Positions 7,450 to 21,500 of a stretch of 29,472 nucleotides of DNA are shown piece after piece. Under the pieces are notes generated by a model. It was not told the DNA's origin and made no database searches. It saw nothing but the letters and a program-made list of their open reading frames with translations. The stretch's first letter is position 1. The number at the start of each line of letters is the position of its first letter. The DNA is from a virus. A program made the position numbers and the translations under genes. Location of the stretch: positions 1 through 29,472 of IMG/VR virus record IMGVR_UViG_3300049489_000046; one strand, 5' to 3'.

Positions 7450-7725
7450 ATGCACTTGTTATGCAAAGGTGGCGACTGGAAAGACGCAAATAATTTTGAC
7501 CCTGCACAAGTTCCGACTAGTGCTGATAGAGTTATTTTAGACCAAACTACAGAAGATGTAATCGTTGATATAAACGCAACTTGTGGTGAATTGCAAATGA
7601 CTAATTTCAAAAAAGATATTTATTACGGAATTATTGGCGGTTCAATTCGCCAATGCGGAATAATACGTAATGAAGATAGATACGATTTATTTCTTGCTAG
7701 ACCCGATATTGTGAGGGTTGATTAA
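7450..7725 (+). CDS. Small beta-rich protein with one GxW/P-x-x-x-D module
   Basis: 91 residues, starting 2 bases after the fibre gene and ending in a TAATG overlap with the next gene. Residues 7-45 (GGDWKDANNFDPAQVPTSADRVILD and on) follow the same pattern as the start of the 1086-residue neighbour: a G-x-W, then an aromatic, a Pro-Thr-x-x-D turn, a V-x-[IL]-D strand and a second strand. It is thus a single stand-alone copy of a module that recurs in the larger protein. Function unknown; a cap, chaperone or separate subunit of the appendage are all possible. Confidence 0.65.
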   Translation: MHLLCKGGDWKDANNFDPAQVPTSADRVILDQTTEDVIVDINATCGELQMTNFKKDIYYGIIGGSIRQCGIIRNEDRYDLFLARPDIVRVD

Positions 7726-10700
7726 TGGCTTCAATAACAGCTAAAGCAACAGGTGGAAATTGGACAGTTGGAAGCACATGGGTTGGTGATGTTGCGCCAC
7801 TTGCCTCTGATGATGTTATTATTGATGGCACATCGGGAAATATAACTATTGATAGTGGTGCGGTTGCTCGTTCGGTTGACTTCAATGGCTATTCAGGTTT
7901 ATGCATTCACAATGCAAATGTTACATTGAACATTGGTGATGGTACAGCAGGTGCAGGAAATCGGGCATTAAGAATGAGCCCAACAATGACTTATTTAAAA
8001 ATGCACCCACAAACAAGTGCAATTGCTTTCATCTCAACATCTGCTACTCAACAAACAATTGATTGGTGTAGCACTACAGGAAATCACACATTCGGTCATA
8101 CTACATACAATGCTTCAAGCAATGGTTCATGGTTATGGAATGATGATTTTATCTCTAGTTTCGCTGGATTAAATGCAACACTTACATTAACAAAAGGCAC
8201 ATTAAACACAAACGGTAAAACCTTCATTGGTGGTCAAGTAACTGGCTCAAATTCGAATGTCAGAACGCTTACAATGGGCGCAAGTCAATTCTATTGTTAC
8301 GGCGTTGGAAATAACTGTTGGTTATTCGCTACAATTACTTCTCTAACTGTTACCGCAAATACTGCAAAAGTTTGGTTCTATAGAAGTCTTACTTGCTTTG
8401 CCCCATTAATTCAATCGGGTACTGTAAATTGGAATGGCTTAGATTTAGAATGGATTGGTGGTGGTATTTGTACAATCGCAAGTGGTGGCGTGCCAATATT
8501 CGATAATGTTACCGTAAATGGCGGTCAAGATTTAGGTGATGGTCGAGAAGACCGTTTACAACAAAACAATTCATGGACTGCTAACGGCACAGTAACATTC
8601 AATGGCTTATCACAAACAAGACGATTAAGAGTTCATTCAAATGGAGGCGTGAGAACTGTTACGGTTGCAGGTGGTTCATCAGTCACAGGAAAATATGTCG
8701 ACTTCCAAAATACCTCATTATCTGTTTCAAATAACTTATCAGCAATTGTAGGTGGTGCAGGTGATTTAGGCGGAAATACAAACATCGTATTTGCATCAGC
8801 CGTACCGAAATATTTTTATTCTCCGACTCCTGGCGTTAAGTTCTATAACGACGATACTCTATGGTTTTTAGGCACAGGTGGTACAGGTGGGCAAACAACA
8901 AGACCACTTGCACAAGACGATGCTATATTCGATTTGAATAGCTTCCCTGTTGCAGGTGTTACGGTTAGAAACGGCGTCGGTTGTAATCAGTTAGGTAAAA
9001 ATATTAACTGGACTGGTGTTACAAATAACCCTGTTTGGGATTTCCAAGTCGATGTTATAAATTACGGCTCATTAACACTTGACCCAAATATGACAGTGAC
9101 TTCTTATAGTGATGCTTTCTTCACAATGTTTGGAAGTGGTGCGTCTCAATTTTTCACCGTTGATTTTGCAGGATTACAATTACCGCACACACTATTCTTA
9201 ATAAATTTCGCATCAACAAATACTTGTACACTGCAATCTCACTTTGTTGGAAATGCTTTAAATACGACATTATTCCAAACAACTGGATTAATTGATTTCA
9301 ATAATAAAAATGTTACTACTGGTCGCTTCCAACAATCAAGCGGTACAATCACAATGGGCGCAGGAATATTCACACTTAAAGGTGTTGGAACTATTTGGAA
9401 TTGTGCAGGAACAGTCAATGCAAATACAAGCGAAATTATCGTTGATTCTCAAAATGTTACTGCTAAGACATTTACTGGTGGAACAAAAACATACAACAAA
9501 TTAACGCTTCAAGGTAATTACAACGATACACTTACTTTCAGCGGAAATAATTCTTTTGGAAATACTTCGATTACTAAAACAAGTGCTTTCAGTTTAGTTT
9601 TTACCACTGGTTCAACGACAACTTTCACTGGAACAGTTACTAAAACAACTGGTTCTTTATGGAACTTAATGTCAACTACTTCAACTGCTTTCACATGGTC
9701 TAAAGCGAGTGGTTCAATTACTTTCGTTGATGCGATTATCTCTAAATCAACTGCAAGTGGTGGTGCTACATTTACCGCTAACACAAACTCAATAGATGGC
9801 GGTGGTAACAGTGGTTGGGCAGGATTTGTTACTAATCCATTTACTTGGACAGGTGCGGTTGATGGTGATGTAAGTAGAGGTGCTAATTGGTTCGGAGGTT
9901 CTCAGCCTACAACTAATGATGTTGCTTATTTCACTGGTGCTTTTAATATAAACGCTTCAATCACAGATATTTTTGCTTCATTAAATAACTGGAAAGGAAT
10001 GGTTGTTACTTTAGGATATACGGGAACAATCAATTCAGTTATCGGCACATGGAGTTTAGGAACAGAAGGTCTTATTATTAGTGGTGGAACAATATCGGGT
10101 ATGCCTAATACTTCATTTACGAACAATGGTAAATTCAGAATGACTGGCGGTACATTTACGCCTTCAAATAATTGGATTCAAGTTAGTCAAGGTTCAACTG
10201 TTGAGACTGTTTTTATTAACGGTGGTACTTATAGCCATGCAAATGGAACATTCACTTTGACAGGTTCAAGCGATGCTATTTTAACAAACACAAGCGCAAG
10301 ACAATTTTATAATTTTACGACATCATCGTTTACAGGCAAGATAAGCGGAACATTCTTTGTTGATAATAGTTTTACTTTAACTACTCAAGAATTTAACGGT
10401 GATGTTTCATGTAAACTATCTATCACAACAGGTGCTTTGACAGGTACAGGAATAATCAGAATCACTGGCACAACAATGACTTTAAATGCAACAGAAGTAC
10501 CGCAATTGCAATTTAACTGTACTGGTACAGTTACTTTATCCGCTGATGTTATTGTTAATTCAACATTAACTTTAACTGCCGTACCAACTGTTAACGGAAA
10601 TACAGTTAGATGCAAAGGAAATATTTCAACTGCCGTAACGACAATTGCAGGCACAACAAATACAAGTATTGAAGGTACATTATACGAGCAATCAATCACA

Positions 10701-10985
10701 GGTGCAGGTGTTCTAATTGGTTCAGCGACAATCAATAAAACAAACGGTCTAGTAAAACTTTCTAGCCACATGACACCTGTTGACTTAACAGAAAATTTTA
10801 CTGTTACACAAGGGCAATTCAACACGAATGAGTACAATGTTGTGTTTAGTAATAACTTGACTGTTTCTGAAGCAAGTGGTGGTTTGTATTTTGAGACTAT
10901 GAACTCTAGTACGCAAGTAAACGGTACTTTATCAGGAAGAAAAATTAAAAGACAAAAACTTTACGCTGGGATAGCAACGATATGA
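7725..10985 (+). CDS. Giant beta-rich adhesin-like appendage protein
   Basis: 1086 residues, almost wholly Thr, Ser, Gly, Asn and hydrophobic beta formers, with very few charged residues. The composition is that of beta-helix or beta-solenoid adhesins. The module G-x-W...TW.G...P...DD[VA] appears at residues 10-45 (GNWTVGSTWVGDVAP), in looser form at 378-405 (LWFLGTGGTGG...RPLAQDDAIF), and again at 707-737 (FTWTGAVDGD...QPTTNDVAYF). The segment TNSIDGGGNSGWAGF (687-701) is a turn seen in secreted adhesin-like repeats. No catalytic motif was seen. It is coupled to its neighbours by TAATG and ATGA overlaps. A surface-binding virion protein is the likely role, and whether it sits on head or tail is undecided. 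Confidence 0.75.
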   Translation: MASITAKATGGNWTVGSTWVGDVAPLASDDVIIDGTSGNITIDSGAVARSVDFNGYSGLCIHNANVTLNIGDGTAGAGNRALRMSPTMTYLKMHPQTSAIAFISTSATQQTIDWCSTTGNHTFGHTTYNASSNGSWLWNDDFISSFAGLNATLTLTKGTLNTNGKTFIGGQVTGSNSNVRTLTMGASQFYCYGVGNNCWLFATITSLTVTANTAKVWFYRSLTCFAPLIQSGTVNWNGLDLEWIGGGICTIASGGVPIFDNVTVNGGQDLGDGREDRLQQNNSWTANGTVTFNGLSQTRRLRVHSNGGVRTVTVAGGSSVTGKYVDFQNTSLSVSNNLSAIVGGAGDLGGNTNIVFASAVPKYFYSPTPGVKFYNDDTLWFLGTGGTGGQTTRPLAQDDAIFDLNSFPVAGVTVRNGVGCNQLGKNINWTGVTNNPVWDFQVDVINYGSLTLDPNMTVTSYSDAFFTMFGSGASQFFTVDFAGLQLPHTLFLINFASTNTCTLQSHFVGNALNTTLFQTTGLIDFNNKNVTTGRFQQSSGTITMGAGIFTLKGVGTIWNCAGTVNANTSEIIVDSQNVTAKTFTGGTKTYNKLTLQGNYNDTLTFSGNNSFGNTSITKTSAFSLVFTTGSTTTFTGTVTKTTGSLWNLMSTTSTAFTWSKASGSITFVDAIISKSTASGGATFTANTNSIDGGGNSGWAGFVTNPFTWTGAVDGDVSRGANWFGGSQPTTNDVAYFTGAFNINASITDIFASLNNWKGMVVTLGYTGTINSVIGTWSLGTEGLIISGGTISGMPNTSFTNNGKFRMTGGTFTPSNNWIQVSQGSTVETVFINGGTYSHANGTFTLTGSSDAILTNTSARQFYNFTTSSFTGKISGTFFVDNSFTLTTQEFNGDVSCKLSITTGALTGTGIIRITGTTMTLNATEVPQLQFNCTGTVTLSADVIVNSTLTLTAVPTVNGNTVRCKGNISTAVTTIAGTTNTSIEGTLYEQSITGAGVLIGSATINKTNGLVKLSSHMTPVDLTENFTVTQGQFNTNEYNVVFSNNLTVSEASGGLYFETMNSSTQVNGTLSGRKIKRQKLYAGIATI

Positions 10986-12499
10986 GTAACGATTTAAGAA
11001 AAAATATAAAAGCTACTGAGACTATTGATACACCATTATTAAAAATTGGTGGGGTTGATAAGACTTCTGATATTAATGCCGTGACAGGAAAAGAAGCTAC
11101 TGCAAATAAAGATGCTAGTGGTGGATATGCTGGCTTAACTTTATTCAAAATTAACTTTAAGAATGTTGCAAATACATTTATCAGCTTCTTTACAAACTCA
11201 AATACCGCTGCTAGAACTTATACATTTCCAGACAGGAATGGTAGTATTGCCGACGATACTGATTTAACAACAACTCTAAATGCTGCTAAGGCTTATGCTG
11301 ATGCTTTAGTCTCTGGTCTTTGGGACGATAGAGGAAATTATGATGCTTCTGGAAACACTTACCCTGCTAGCGGTGGTAGTGGTACGGCTGGTGCTATTTT
11401 AAAAGGTGATATTTGGACAGTTAGCGTTACTGGGACGCTGAACGGAAAGACCGTTGAAGTTGGTGATACTGTTCGTGCCTTAGTTGATGCGCCTGCACAG
11501 ACTGATGCAAATTGGGCGGTTGCTGAAACAAATATTGGTTATGTAGCAGAAAATTCAGCTAATAAAAATGCAAGTGGTGGTTATGCAGGGCTTTCTTTAT
11601 TTAAAATTGTCATTAGAAACGCTGCTAATACTGTTTCTAACTTTTTTACAAATGCGACAACTGTTGCTAGAACATGGACTTTTCAAGATAGAGATGGAAT
11701 AATAGCTGATGATACAGATATTACATCTGCTAAAGCAAGAGGAAATCATACAGGCACGCAAACCGCATCAACGATTTCAGATTTTAACGCTTCCGCTTTA
11801 TCAGCAGCCCCTGCCGAAACATTAACAACTGGAGGCGCATTAATTACAAGTGGTGCTGATAAAGCCACTCCTGTTGATGCTGATGAATTTGCGATAAGAA
11901 ATAGCGTTGGTGGTTTGCTTGCTAAAGTTACATGGGCAAATATTAAAGCTACTTTAAAAACATATTTTGATTCATTAACAACTACACTTTCAAATAAAAC
12001 TCTTGCATCACCAATTATCACAGGTTTGATTGATGCCTCTGATTCTGGTGCAGGGCAAATTAAATTTCCTGCAACACAGAATCCAAGTGCTGATGCAAAT
12101 ACTTTAGATGATTATGAGGAGGGAACTTTTAATATAGGATTAACTTTTGGTGGTGGCAATACAGGGATTACTTACAGTAAGCAATCTTTTAGATATTTAA
12201 AAATTGGAAGAAAAGTATGGATAGAAGGTGATTTGGACTTGTCTTCTAAAGGTTCGTCAACTGGTGCAGTTCTTCTTACTGGACTTCCTTTCACTATAGA
12301 GAATGCTTATGGTGGCGCTATTAGCGTTGCTAATATAACTGCAATATCATATGTTGGTTCTCTCAGAGGTTTACTACTTTTAAATTCTACGACAATAGCT
12401 TTAGGCCAAATGTCAGAAGCAGGGGTATCAACTGATTTAGACGATACAAATTTTGCTAACAACTCAAGAATAATTTTTTCAGCAAATTACAATATTTAA
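10982..12499 (+). CDS. Tail-fibre-like protein with internal duplication
   Basis: 505 residues, starting within the ATGA shared with the preceding gene. The pieces are typical of phage fibres: LWDDRGNYDASGNTYPASGG (residues 113-132), a GDIWTVSVTGTLNGKTVEVGD stretch, the GNHTGTQTASTISDFNASAL repeat (254-273), and a C-terminal TLDDYEEGTF...GITYSKQSFRYLKIGRKVW domain (about 373-415) that ends many fibres. Two copies of a 55-residue unit (residues 42-96 and 194-248) flank the first module. The conserved end domain is usually a trimerising or receptor-proximal domain. This is the clearest fibre in the cassette. Confidence 0.85.
   Translation: MSNDLRKNIKATETIDTPLLKIGGVDKTSDINAVTGKEATANKDASGGYAGLTLFKINFKNVANTFISFFTNSNTAARTYTFPDRNGSIADDTDLTTTLNAAKAYADALVSGLWDDRGNYDASGNTYPASGGSGTAGAILKGDIWTVSVTGTLNGKTVEVGDTVRALVDAPAQTDANWAVAETNIGYVAENSANKNASGGYAGLSLFKIVIRNAANTVSNFFTNATTVARTWTFQDRDGIIADDTDITSAKARGNHTGTQTASTISDFNASALSAAPAETLTTGGALITSGADKATPVDADEFAIRNSVGGLLAKVTWANIKATLKTYFDSLTTTLSNKTLASPIITGLIDASDSGAGQIKFPATQNPSADANTLDDYEEGTFNIGLTFGGGNTGITYSKQSFRYLKIGRKVWIEGDLDLSSKGSSTGAVLLTGLPFTIENAYGGAISVANITAISYVGSLRGLLLLNSTTIALGQMSEAGVSTDLDDTNFANNSRIIFSANYNI
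11105..11269 (+). repeat. Copy 1 of a 55-residue duplication in the fibre gene
   Basis: Encodes NKDASGGYAGLTLFKINFKN and on to IADDTDLT. It pairs with 11561-11725, sharing the skeleton NK-x-ASGGYAGL-x-LFK, N-x-ANT, FFTN, AART-x-TF-x-DR-x-G-x-IADDTD. Confidence 0.85.
11561..11725 (+). repeat. Copy 2 of a 55-residue duplication in the fibre gene
   Basis: Encodes NKNASGGYAGLSLFKIVIRN and on to IADDTDIT. Same length as copy 1, with no insertion or deletion, and separated from it by about 97 residues of a different fibre module. Confidence 0.85.
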
Positions 12500-17215: not shown

Positions 17216-17224
17216 TTTCGTGTG

Positions 17225-17254
17225 GTGGCTATCATGGTGGTAGCCACTTTTTTT
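17225..17254 (+). terminator. Rho-independent terminator after the tail-tube gene
   Basis: Arms GTGGCTA (17225-17231) and TAGCCAC (17241-17247) form a perfect 7-bp stem with a 9-base loop, followed by seven T. It lies 9 bases after the tail-tube stop and 24 before the chaperone start. Confidence 0.9.
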
Positions 17255-17278
17255 ACATTTATTTATAGAAAGTTTACA

Positions 17279-17716
17279 ATGGCTTTGACAAAGTTCAAAA
17301 CAGATGTTAAGTCGGTTAATGAAGGAATCGACATCAAGTTAATGGATTCAATTAATTCAGACGGCACTATTCCAACTGTAACAGTTGCGAGAATGTCATC
17401 ACAAAACAAAAAATATATGGAGACGATTCGGAAATTCAACGATGCTCAATCGCTTGAATACGGAGTTATTTCTTTAGACAAATTCACGCCCGAACAAAGC
17501 AAGCAATTGAACATTGATACATTTGTTGAATCAATTGTTTTAGGTTGGGAGAATTTTGAATTTTCTGAAGGTGTTAAGACGCCTTATTCAAAGGAAAATT
17601 GTCGTAATATTTTGTGTAGTGATGAATGGTTCGATTTGAAAGACCGTATTGAAAAAGAAGCCGTTAAATCATCTAACTTTAGTGCAGAGTTGTTGGACAA
17701 AAAAGCAAAAAACTAA
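17279..17716 (+). CDS. Tail assembly chaperone (lambda gpG-like)
   Basis: 145 residues from the ATG at 17279; an in-frame GTG at 17222 would run through the terminator hairpin and is rejected. The protein is small, mixed helical and ends in a basic run (LDKKAKN). No strong motif is visible; the assignment rests on position between tail tube and tape measure and on the frameshift site at its end. Such chaperones coat the tape measure during tail assembly and are not part of the virion. The last two sense codons, AAA AAC, lie inside the slippery heptamer, and the stop follows directly. Confidence 0.85.
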   Translation: MALTKFKTDVKSVNEGIDIKLMDSINSDGTIPTVTVARMSSQNKKYMETIRKFNDAQSLEYGVISLDKFTPEQSKQLNIDTFVESIVLGWENFEFSEGVKTPYSKENCRNILCSDEWFDLKDRIEKEAVKSSNFSAELLDKKAKN

Positions 17717-17753: not shown

Positions 17754-18138
17754 AACGATAAATAACGAGAAGATGATAGAGAAGCAGGCAAAGAACGCTA
17801 AAAAGCCTTTGCCTGAATGGTTAGTAAAGAAGCGAGCAAGCAAGCCTAAATTAGCGTTTGGGCTTGATTTTTACTACAATGCTTTTTGGACTTTATGCAC
17901 TGAAAGAGTTTTCTCTGAAGTTGTTTTGCATCTTGCGTGGTCGAAGATACAAATGTATGCTGATTACTGGGAAATGGACTTCGATGACGCCGAACAATTC
18001 CATTATCTGATGAAGAAAATGGACGATGCTTATGTTGAGAATATGAGGGTTAAAGATGGCAAGACAAAACAAGACCAACCTATCGACACTCGGAAGCCAA
18101 CTAACGAAAGAGTTAAACCAAATCCGCGTAAAAAATAG
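17713..18138 (+). CDS. Frameshift extension of the tail chaperone (lambda T-like part)
   Basis: This frame is -1 relative to the gpG-like gene and is open from the slip site (17713) to a stop at 18138, 141 residues. The fusion would be 286 residues (145 + 141). The first new residues are LIDCLVYSIKNNDKTINNEK, followed by the part from ATG 17773 (MIEKQAKNAKK). It includes LAFGLDFYYNAFWTLCTERVFSEVVLH and ends in a basic tail. An independent start at 17773 has only a poorly spaced GAGAAG touching the ATG, so production by frameshift is favoured. In lambda the GT fusion binds the tape measure through its T part. The gene overlaps the next gene by 83 bases. Confidence 0.85.
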   Translation, partial: LIDCLVYSIKNNDKTINNEKMIEKQAKNAKKPLPEWLVKKRASKPKLAFGLDFYYNAFWTLCTERVFSEVVLHLAWSKIQMYADYWEMDFDDAEQFHYLMKKMDDAYVENMRVKDGKTKQDQPIDTRKPTNERVKPNPRKK

Positions 18139-18514: not shown

Positions 18515-21500
18515 TGGCGAGGATTACTATTGAGATTTCGGACAGTATTCAGAGTTCGGTTGTTACTAAAATAAAAGAAATAGGCGATAACGCTAAGGCT
18601 TCTCAATTATCAATTGAACAATTGAACAATTCATTAAATACATTAAATATCACAAAATCTAATAAATCGCAAAAAGACCAACAATTTGCAATGGAAAGAA
18701 TGCACACCATAGCACTTGATATGGACGCTAAAAGAAGATTTTCGCAAGAAAGAACACATCAACTGGCGATAGACCAATATAATAAAGTAAAATTAATGCA
18801 AGAAAAGACTCATGTTCTTGCACTAGATATGGAAGAAAAGTTAAAGTTTGCTAAAGGCAGAACACATCAATTAGCATTAGACCAATATGAAAAGATAAAA
18901 ACTAGACAAGAACGACTTCATCAACTAGCCTTAGATATGGAACAAAAAATAATGTTTTCTAAAGGCAGAACTCACCAACTAGCTATTGATATGGACAATA
19001 AAAGAAAATTTTCGCAAGAAAGAACACATACTCTAGCACTTGATATGGACGCTAAGAGAAAATCTTCTATGGAAAAAATGCACGCTATTGCATTAGACAT
19101 GGAAAACAAAAGAAGAATTTCAATAGAAAAAGCCCATGTATTAGCTTTAGATATGGAAAATAAAAGAAAAATTGCTATGGAGAAAATGCACGCACAAGCT
19201 ATTCAGATGAATGAAAAAATGAATAGCAAAGGTGGATTTGAAAATCTATTTACATTAAATAATCTAATGAGGGCTTTCGTTGCAATTAAATCTGTTGAAA
19301 GAATCGTACAGATAGCAGACTCATATACTTTAATGGAAAATAGAATTAAACTTATATCTAAATCAACAGAAAACTTGCTTGGATTGCAATCTGAATTATT
19401 TAGAATCGCAAATAACGCAAGAGTTCCAGTTGTTGAATTAACACAATCTTTTGTTAGATTCGATTATGCTTTAAAAGCATTAGGGGCAACACAAAGAGAG
19501 TCTTTGAAATTCACAAAAACATTATCACAAACCCTTGCAATTAGCGGATTAACAACACAAGAGCAGTCAAGTGCGTTGTTGCAATTATCACAAGCCTTAA
19601 ACAAAGGTAAATTAGACGGTGATGAATTTAGAACAGTTATGGAAACATTACCTACTGTTGCTACTGCTATCGCAAAACAAATGGGTGTTGCTCGTGGAGA
19701 ATTAATTAAACTAGCACCGCAAGGAAAGATTACTTCTGAAATTATTCGTGATGCTATAGCTTCGATTGCAGACGAAACAGATAAAGCATTCTCAAATTTA
19801 ACGCCTACAATTGGTCAAGCATTTACGGTTATGCAGAATAAAATTATTGAGAATATAGGAGTATTCAATCAAGCAACTGGAGCTTCTGAGATATTCGCAA
19901 AAGCATTGCTTGTATTAGCTGATAATCTAGGGACTTTAACTTTAGCAGCAACATTATCCGCAACTATTTTTGCAACTAGATTTATACCTGTTGTTATTTC
20001 TGGAATAACAAGAATAGGAGTTGCAAGCACTGCGCTTTTAGCTAATCCTGTATTCCTACTTCCTGCCGTACTTGCGGCATCATTTATTGCTATAAAATCT
20101 ATATTTGATAAGAGAAATGCAGAAATAGATGCGCAAACAGATAGAGATAATGCAAAAGCTGACGAGTTTGAGAGACAACAAGAAAGAAGAAGAAAGGCGC
20201 TTATTTATGAAACAGAAGCAACAATAAAATTAAGAACAGAATATGGTAAATATTTAGTTTTATTAGCAGAATCAAAAGATGCAAAAGAGAGAGGATTTAT
20301 ATCTGAAAGAGCAAAAGAAGCATTATTGCTTGAAACTGTTATTGGTAAAGGTCAAGAAAAAGCACAGGAATTAATAAATAAAAAACCTCAAGCTGTACTT
20401 TCTGATGCTGAAATATTAGAAAAAGAAAGAAAAGATATTAAATCAGAATACGACAACTCATTGGTCGATTTAGAGAATTTTATAAGGGCATCTGTTGAAT
20501 TAAGAAATGAGCAGACTAAAAAAGAAATTCAATCAAGAAAAGATTTAATTGCAGAGGAAGCAACAAAGCAATCTTTAGCTAAAAAACTTAGCGTTGTAGA
20601 AGCGCAACCAGATACTATTTTTAGTTCTAATAAAGAAGAATTGGCTCAAGTCAAGGAGCTTATAAAGTTAAACGAATCAAGATTAAAAGAAAAAGAAAAT
20701 ATATTTAATTTTGAATTTAAGACAGGTGAGCTAACAACAGAAAACTTAAAAAAGAATATTGATTTACAAAGCAATCTGAAAAAAGCACTTGAGGAAAGAT
20801 TGCTTTTGTTAAATAGGATTGGAATTGAAACGATAAAAGCAGATATTAAAAATAGCAGAGACAGAATGCAAAAAGAGTACAATGATACTTTGCAAGCAAC
20901 TAATGAACTAGTAAAAGAAGGAAATATAAATGAGGCGCAAAAATCAATAATTCTAAGTAATACAAATAAGATAAGAGAGCTTTTAAGAACAAATGAAAAA
21001 GCAGATGCTTTTAGCTATAAAACAGAATCTCAAAAAAGACTAGAAAGCATTAACAAGGAAACAACTGAAACATTAAGATTAGTTGATGCTAATATAAAAC
21101 TATTTGAATCTTATCAGGATTATTTAGACGCTAGAGATAAAATTACAAAAGGTTCAGATAGACAGAAGGATGAATTAAAAAAAGAAATTGATAGAAGTTC
21201 TCTTGTTGCTAGTGGTGGAAGTATAAGCAATGTTAGACTTGAGGAAATTGAAAGAGAAGAACAAAGATTTAAAGATTATCAAAAAACAATTGAATCTCTT
21301 AAAAATGATGAATTGAAAAAAGCAGGAGAGAATGAAAGCCAAAAAGAAGCTATTAAAAAAGAATATTTAGAAAGAGAATTGAGAGCTAAAAAAGAGCATG
21401 AAAACAAATTAAATGCAATTGATAGCGATGCAGCTTCAAAAAGATTAGCAATTGCAGCAAATATGTTCGGTGCTTTGTCTGATTTAGCAGGTGTTTTTGC

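Follow-up and report, generated by a model that had tools for sequence, protein, structure and literature searches.

It has long been asked whether tape measure proteins (TMPs), which set the length of a phage's tail, are made up of discrete units of length; the published units span 11 or 11-11-18 residues. Units of 11 and 11-11-18 residues, marked by Trp or Phe, have been described for ~5% of annotated TMPs (Belcaid et al. 2011; PMC3271669). In phage TP901-1, a 347-aa deletion in the TMP, covering a part that contains 11- and 18-residue repeats, reduces tail length from 118 nm to 65 nm (PMC5099701), and from these figures we computed 0.153 nm per aa. In JBD30, a TMP trimer fills a tail tube of 45 discs at 43.2 Å (PMC11445458). 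Tails of Septimatrevirus phages are given as ~192 nm, a value averaged with two other siphoviruses and too coarse for a 10 nm difference (PMC12141865), while phiAxp-1, with a TMP of 1044 aa and a tail of 230 nm, illustrates the noise in such length comparisons (PMC4764938).

The window, that is the whole stretch of DNA analysed, is a 29,472-base record of an uncultured bacteriophage with a GC content of 37%, and may be a partial genome. Its TMP gene is preceded by genes for the terminase, portal, scaffold, capsid and neck proteins, then by the tail tube and two chaperone ORFs (Table 1), and a J-like tail-tip protein is encoded 3′ of it. The overall order is that of Septimatrevirus Kakheti25, a genus in which terminase, portal, scaffold, capsid, tail tube, two chaperones, completion protein and TMP follow one another as in the window. 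In this comparison the portal is 42% identical over 89%, and all phage matches fall below 60% identity. The first-pass annotation, made from the letters alone, had called the protein a tape measure, and the PF20155 and PHROG matches in Table 1 bear this out, the former scoring 186.8 bits against a gathering cut-off of 41. Several neighbours were also recorded. The tail tube protein is long (511 aa in Septimatrevirus). The small ORF adjoining the 3′ end of the TMP gene resembles a stand-alone copy of the TMP's C-terminal domain and has no counterpart in the nearest relative, L048. The stretch at 7725-12499, between the capsid and neck genes, is occupied by a pair of large ORFs, of 1086 and 505 aa, that match PHROG families weakly or not at all; Kakheti25 has nothing but small genes there.

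Table 1 Coordinates of the tape measure gene, its parts and the adjoining tail genes in the window
Feature	Position	Strand	Evidence
Tail tube protein, 519 aa	15656..17215	+	PF18906 E 2.5e-19
Tail assembly chaperone (gpG-like)	17222..17716	+	phrog_313 E 1.9e-21
Second tail chaperone ORF (gpT-like)	17773..18138	+	phrog_3817 E 1.1e-19; gene order matches Kakheti25
Tape measure protein ORF, 1190 aa	18514..22086	+	PF20155 TMP_3 E 4.5e-55; 20 PHROG tape-measure families
N-terminal segment, aa 1-60: short strand, helix 14-43, loop	18514..18693	+	Alignment to relatives' N-terminus; AF2
Array, ten 18-residue (54-nt) units, aa 61-240	18694..19233	+	Translation, TRF, lag statistic; predicted helix 53-235
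Array unit starts	18694, 18748, 18802, 18856, 18910, 18964, 19018, 19072, 19126, 19180	+	
Conserved TMP_3 domain, aa 264-453	19303..19872	+	Profile match; modelled confidently as helical by alignment-based AF2
Small ORF, 67 aa, like the tape measure's last 67 residues	22103..22306	+	39% identity, E 1.1e-6

Between the short N-terminal segment and the conserved TMP_3 domain the protein carries ten consecutive units, in order ERMHTIALDMDAKRRFSQ, ERTHQLAIDQYNKVKLMQ, EKTHVLALDMEEKLKFAK, GRTHQLALDQYEKIKTRQ, ERLHQLALDMEQKIMFSK, GRTHQLAIDMDNKRKFSQ, ERTHTLALDMDAKRKSSM, EKMHAIALDMENKRRISI, EKAHVLALDMENKRKIAM and EKMHAQAIQMNEKMNSKG. Translation agrees with the initial description of ten gapless repeats of perfect length sharing a histidine at position 4: no frameshift, gap or stop interrupts the ten units, and His4, Ala7 and Lys13 are each present in all of them, with Asp9 in 9/10. 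Identity at lag 18 reaches 82/162, against a maximum of 26 in 2000 shuffles of the same residues over lags 5-59, and TRF independently picks up the array in the DNA with periods of 54 and 108 nt. The array's lags are 18, 36 and 54. Unit 10 is degenerate, with 22-44% amino acid identity to the other units, and unit 1 is highly similar to units 6 and 7. This likeness, together with a weak 36-residue super-period (0.44 versus 0.42 at lag 18), hints at duplications of more than one unit.

At the DNA level the units have diverged considerably. Neighbouring units share a mean identity of 0.60, and even the invariant residues are written with different codons (His: CAT 6, CAC 4; Ala: GCA 5, GCT 3, GCG 1, GCC 1). 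Across the 45 unit pairs pS is 0.72 and pN 0.34, with pN below pS in 44/45, and at columns 4, 6, 7, 8, 9 and 13 the values are 0.89 and 0.12. Since synonymous sites are near saturation while pN is low at the conserved columns, the array is old and purifying selection maintains those columns. These data bear directly on the reading of the array as a by-product of recombination that is helical and tolerated but otherwise does little. Repeats are natural substrates for duplication and the segment varies widely among relatives, as this reading would have it; however, six columns are under selection and all ten units have stayed intact, so that drift, already weakened by the codon data, appears improbable.

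In composition the array favours a helix (K, A, L, M, E, R, Q), with only 3 Gly and no Pro. Structure prediction, which the first-pass annotation had proposed as a check, supported a continuous helix in one of two AF2 models: the single-sequence model (residues 1-329) has an uninterrupted helix from 53 to 235 with pLDDT of 85-91 across most of the array, whereas the full-length model built on a 26-sequence alignment has helices at 53-167 and 178-236, a break at 168-177 and pLDDT of 38-74 in the array. Acid residues followed by a base at i+4 occur 15 times versus 5.5 expected, a count reached in 0/2000 shuffles, and pairs in the reverse, base-to-acid order are not enriched. The acid-to-base order at i,i+4 is the orientation that stabilises helices, and the excess fits a charged helix held by ion pairs.

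The array does not have the marks of a coiled coil. Its hydrophobic moment at 100 degrees is 0.107, a value reached by 75% of column permutations; with the moment at chance level and no hydrophobic stripe, an ordinary coiled coil, including the straight 18/5 type, is unsupported. A heptad coiled coil was rejected on the lags and on the moment at 102.9 degrees (0.016, versus 0.159 in Kakheti25). The conserved columns do not gather along one helical face (p = 0.97), nor does conservation in the array follow a three-residue period (p 0.40). Thus, of the proposal that each unit equals five helical turns, the predicted helix stands, but the period itself is phase arithmetic with no sign of an amphipathic helix. 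With ion pairs enriched, no amphipathic face and conservation off any face, the array is best seen, on these predictions, as a charged helical rod whose oligomeric packing is not established. A β-solenoid with 18-residue coils, for which 18 residues would be a plausible coil length and the strongest hydrophobicity harmonic, at 180 degrees (alternation), could speak, is exceedingly unlikely given the helix-forming composition, the helix in both AF2 models and the i,i+4 pairs.

The absence of a conserved face also weighs on the invariant histidine, for which a structural or pH-dependent contact had been suggested; this we find unsupported, as Ala7 and Lys13 are equally invariant. In its fullest form the idea is of a ladder, in which the histidine side chains of a TMP trimer would stack into ten layers and either bind metal or respond to pH when ejection takes place. 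His4 is kept in every unit with both of its codons in use, only 4 His occur in the 950 residues after the array, and methionines on the axis of the JBD30 TMP coordinate a putative ion, but at the C-terminus (PMC11445458). His4 lies at 40 degrees, though, away from the most hydrophobic side at ~240-340, and we hold such a ladder to be very improbable. It would likewise be a long shot that the array is a phase-locked modular ruler that replaced a heptad coil, with ten TMP-trimer layers setting His4 (plus Ala7 and Lys13) every 2.7 nm as a metal or pH lock that keeps the tape extended and releases it at ejection.

Conservation off any helical face would be in keeping with a different role, the docking of tail assembly chaperones, in which HxLALDM (positions 4-10) would act as a linear motif present ten times over, and chaperone copies loaded onto the array would hold the tape in an extended state until the tube polymerises. 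The TMP gene is closely preceded by two chaperone ORFs, and in the description of Belcaid et al. the conserved residues of the repeats anchor auxiliary proteins (PMC3271669). Linear clustering of the array's conserved columns is not significant, however (p 0.12-0.19), replacing an entire 11-aa repeat of TP901-1 with alanines left infectivity unaffected (PMC5099701), and Kakheti25-like heptad coils do without the motif despite the presence of chaperone genes. We therefore regard docking as rather unlikely, although it can coexist with a spacer role.

The site of the array proved informative. PHROG profiles join profile position ~65 directly to window residue ~242, which indicates that the array occupies a length-variable place. 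Relatives carry there an Ala/Gln-rich coil with heptad-multiple repeats and widely varying length: the segment between the N-terminal anchor and the ADAYT motif can be as short as 64 or as long as 359 residues among them. The L050 TMP has, relative to its close relative L053, a net coil insertion of 133 residues (19 x 7) in an N-terminal part that is otherwise close, a pair that amounts to a natural tape-length variant of 19 heptads. The distribution of segment lengths is no more than suggestive of quantisation in heptads: most distinct lengths among the better-aligned relatives fall in class 5 or 6 modulo 7, but class 5 holds only 8 of all 28 distinct lengths.

In relatives, internal repetition is strongest at lags of 14, 21, 28, 35, 49 and 56, and the strongest N-terminal lags (z > 5) in 80 viral TMPs are nearly all multiples of seven, the exception being L125 at 44. 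Among 81 related tape measures the array is the strongest repeat and the sole case of period 18, with z = 16.4 at lag 18 versus 9.3 for the next best (L075, lag 21). The statement that tape measures are rarely this regular consequently holds for the pure 18-residue array, which is unique in this set, but not for repeats as such, as heptad repeats are common at the site and 11 and 11-11-18 units are published. Three records in the comparison have irregular gene models. In Stenotrophomonas phage DLP2 (L013), around 1240-1420, the TMP frame lacks the conserved N-terminus and starts instead in a frame that is not related, apparently through a frameshift or an error in sequencing; the annotated TMP start of UF_RH5 (L019) is ~470 bases too late; and the TMP of Kaya (L015) is split across two overlapping ORFs.

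The distance from the anchor to ADAYT is 228 residues in the window protein, versus 109 in L048 and 115 in L051, the relatives nearest to it. Without the array only 48 of these residues would be left, which suggests that the array probably replaced an older coil in the window lineage and was not added to it. At 1190 aa, the window TMP is about as long as those of relatives that lack the array (Kakheti25 1204, L050 1208, L048 1128). The array may therefore make up for losses elsewhere, and does not have to yield a longer tail overall.

Taken together, the array is very likely an N-terminal spacer of the tape: a long helix of ten equal 18-residue, five-turn segments between the N-terminal anchor and TMP_3. 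In the virion it would be helical and lie inside the tail tube as part of a TMP trimer, as in JBD30. By analogy with TP901-1, at ~0.15 nm per residue, each unit would contribute ~2.7 nm and the array ~27 nm of the tail. Unequal recombination among the units is the probable way in which it grew, and units of whole turns (7/2, 11/3, 18/5) may be favoured since they preserve the helical phase of the downstream part. A clean 18-residue unit where relatives have variable heptad coils points to one rule, whole helical turns, followed with different units, and the array offers a regular substrate for the gain or loss of exact 2.7 nm steps.

Searches of the viral, genome and phage collections, which are themselves incomplete, did not turn up another copy of the array. 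The viral contigs contained no close relative of the TMP, of the tail-tip protein or of the portal, the genome contigs contained none of the TMP, and tblastn of the array against phages gave no match, to which the low-complexity filter possibly contributed. A degenerate DNA pattern for three H-A-K units returned 4 viral and 26 genomic stretches, and of the frames that were read none resembled a tape measure; a two-unit HxLALD pattern returned 4 viral stretches, none relevant. An unrelated viral contig (L135, minus strand, ~86-157) holds a stop-free frame of 105 residues built from near-identical nine-residue repeats (RCIAIDRLN).

Among known systems, the TMPs of Septimatrevirus (Kakheti25, PaMx42, DLP1) share the TMP_3 domain with the window protein and have, in the position of the array, a helical segment made of repeats. 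This segment differs in length by sub-group, with 159 (Kakheti25) or 237 (Kaya, PaMx42 group) residues from anchor to ADAYT and total lengths of 1204 and 1275 aa. Unlike the array, it is Ala/Gln-rich, repeats at lags 56, 28, 21 and 14, and has neither the 18-residue unit nor the histidine or the H-A-K columns. The insertion in L050 relative to L053 is a length change by whole units at the array's site, but in heptads and not in 18-residue units. The JBD30 TMP (PDB 8rk3) has a related domain (E 1.7e-16, window residues 223-494); its related stretch starts near chain residue 32, which leaves no room for such an array, and only the C-terminal 33 residues are built in the structure.

The TMPs of the lactococcal phages TP901-1 and p2 resemble the window array in having whole-turn repeats that include 18-residue units. 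Our lag statistic recovers these published repeats (TP901-1 lags 22, 44, 11 and 29; p2 lags 40, 18 and 11) and finds no comparable repeat in lambda gpH. Their units are a mixture of 11 and 18 residues, marked by Trp or Phe and located in the second half of the protein, whereas the window array is purely 18-residue, lies N-terminal to TMP_3, and has an invariant His and no Trp. With Phe16 in only 4/10 units and a single period of 18, it falls outside the aromatic-marked 11 or 11-11-18 class (Siponen; Belcaid 2011). Because 11- and 18-residue TMP units are published and relatives carry a variable heptad spacer at the same spot, the array counts as an uncommon form of a part already known and not as a new kind of thing; its new element is the pure 18-residue unit.
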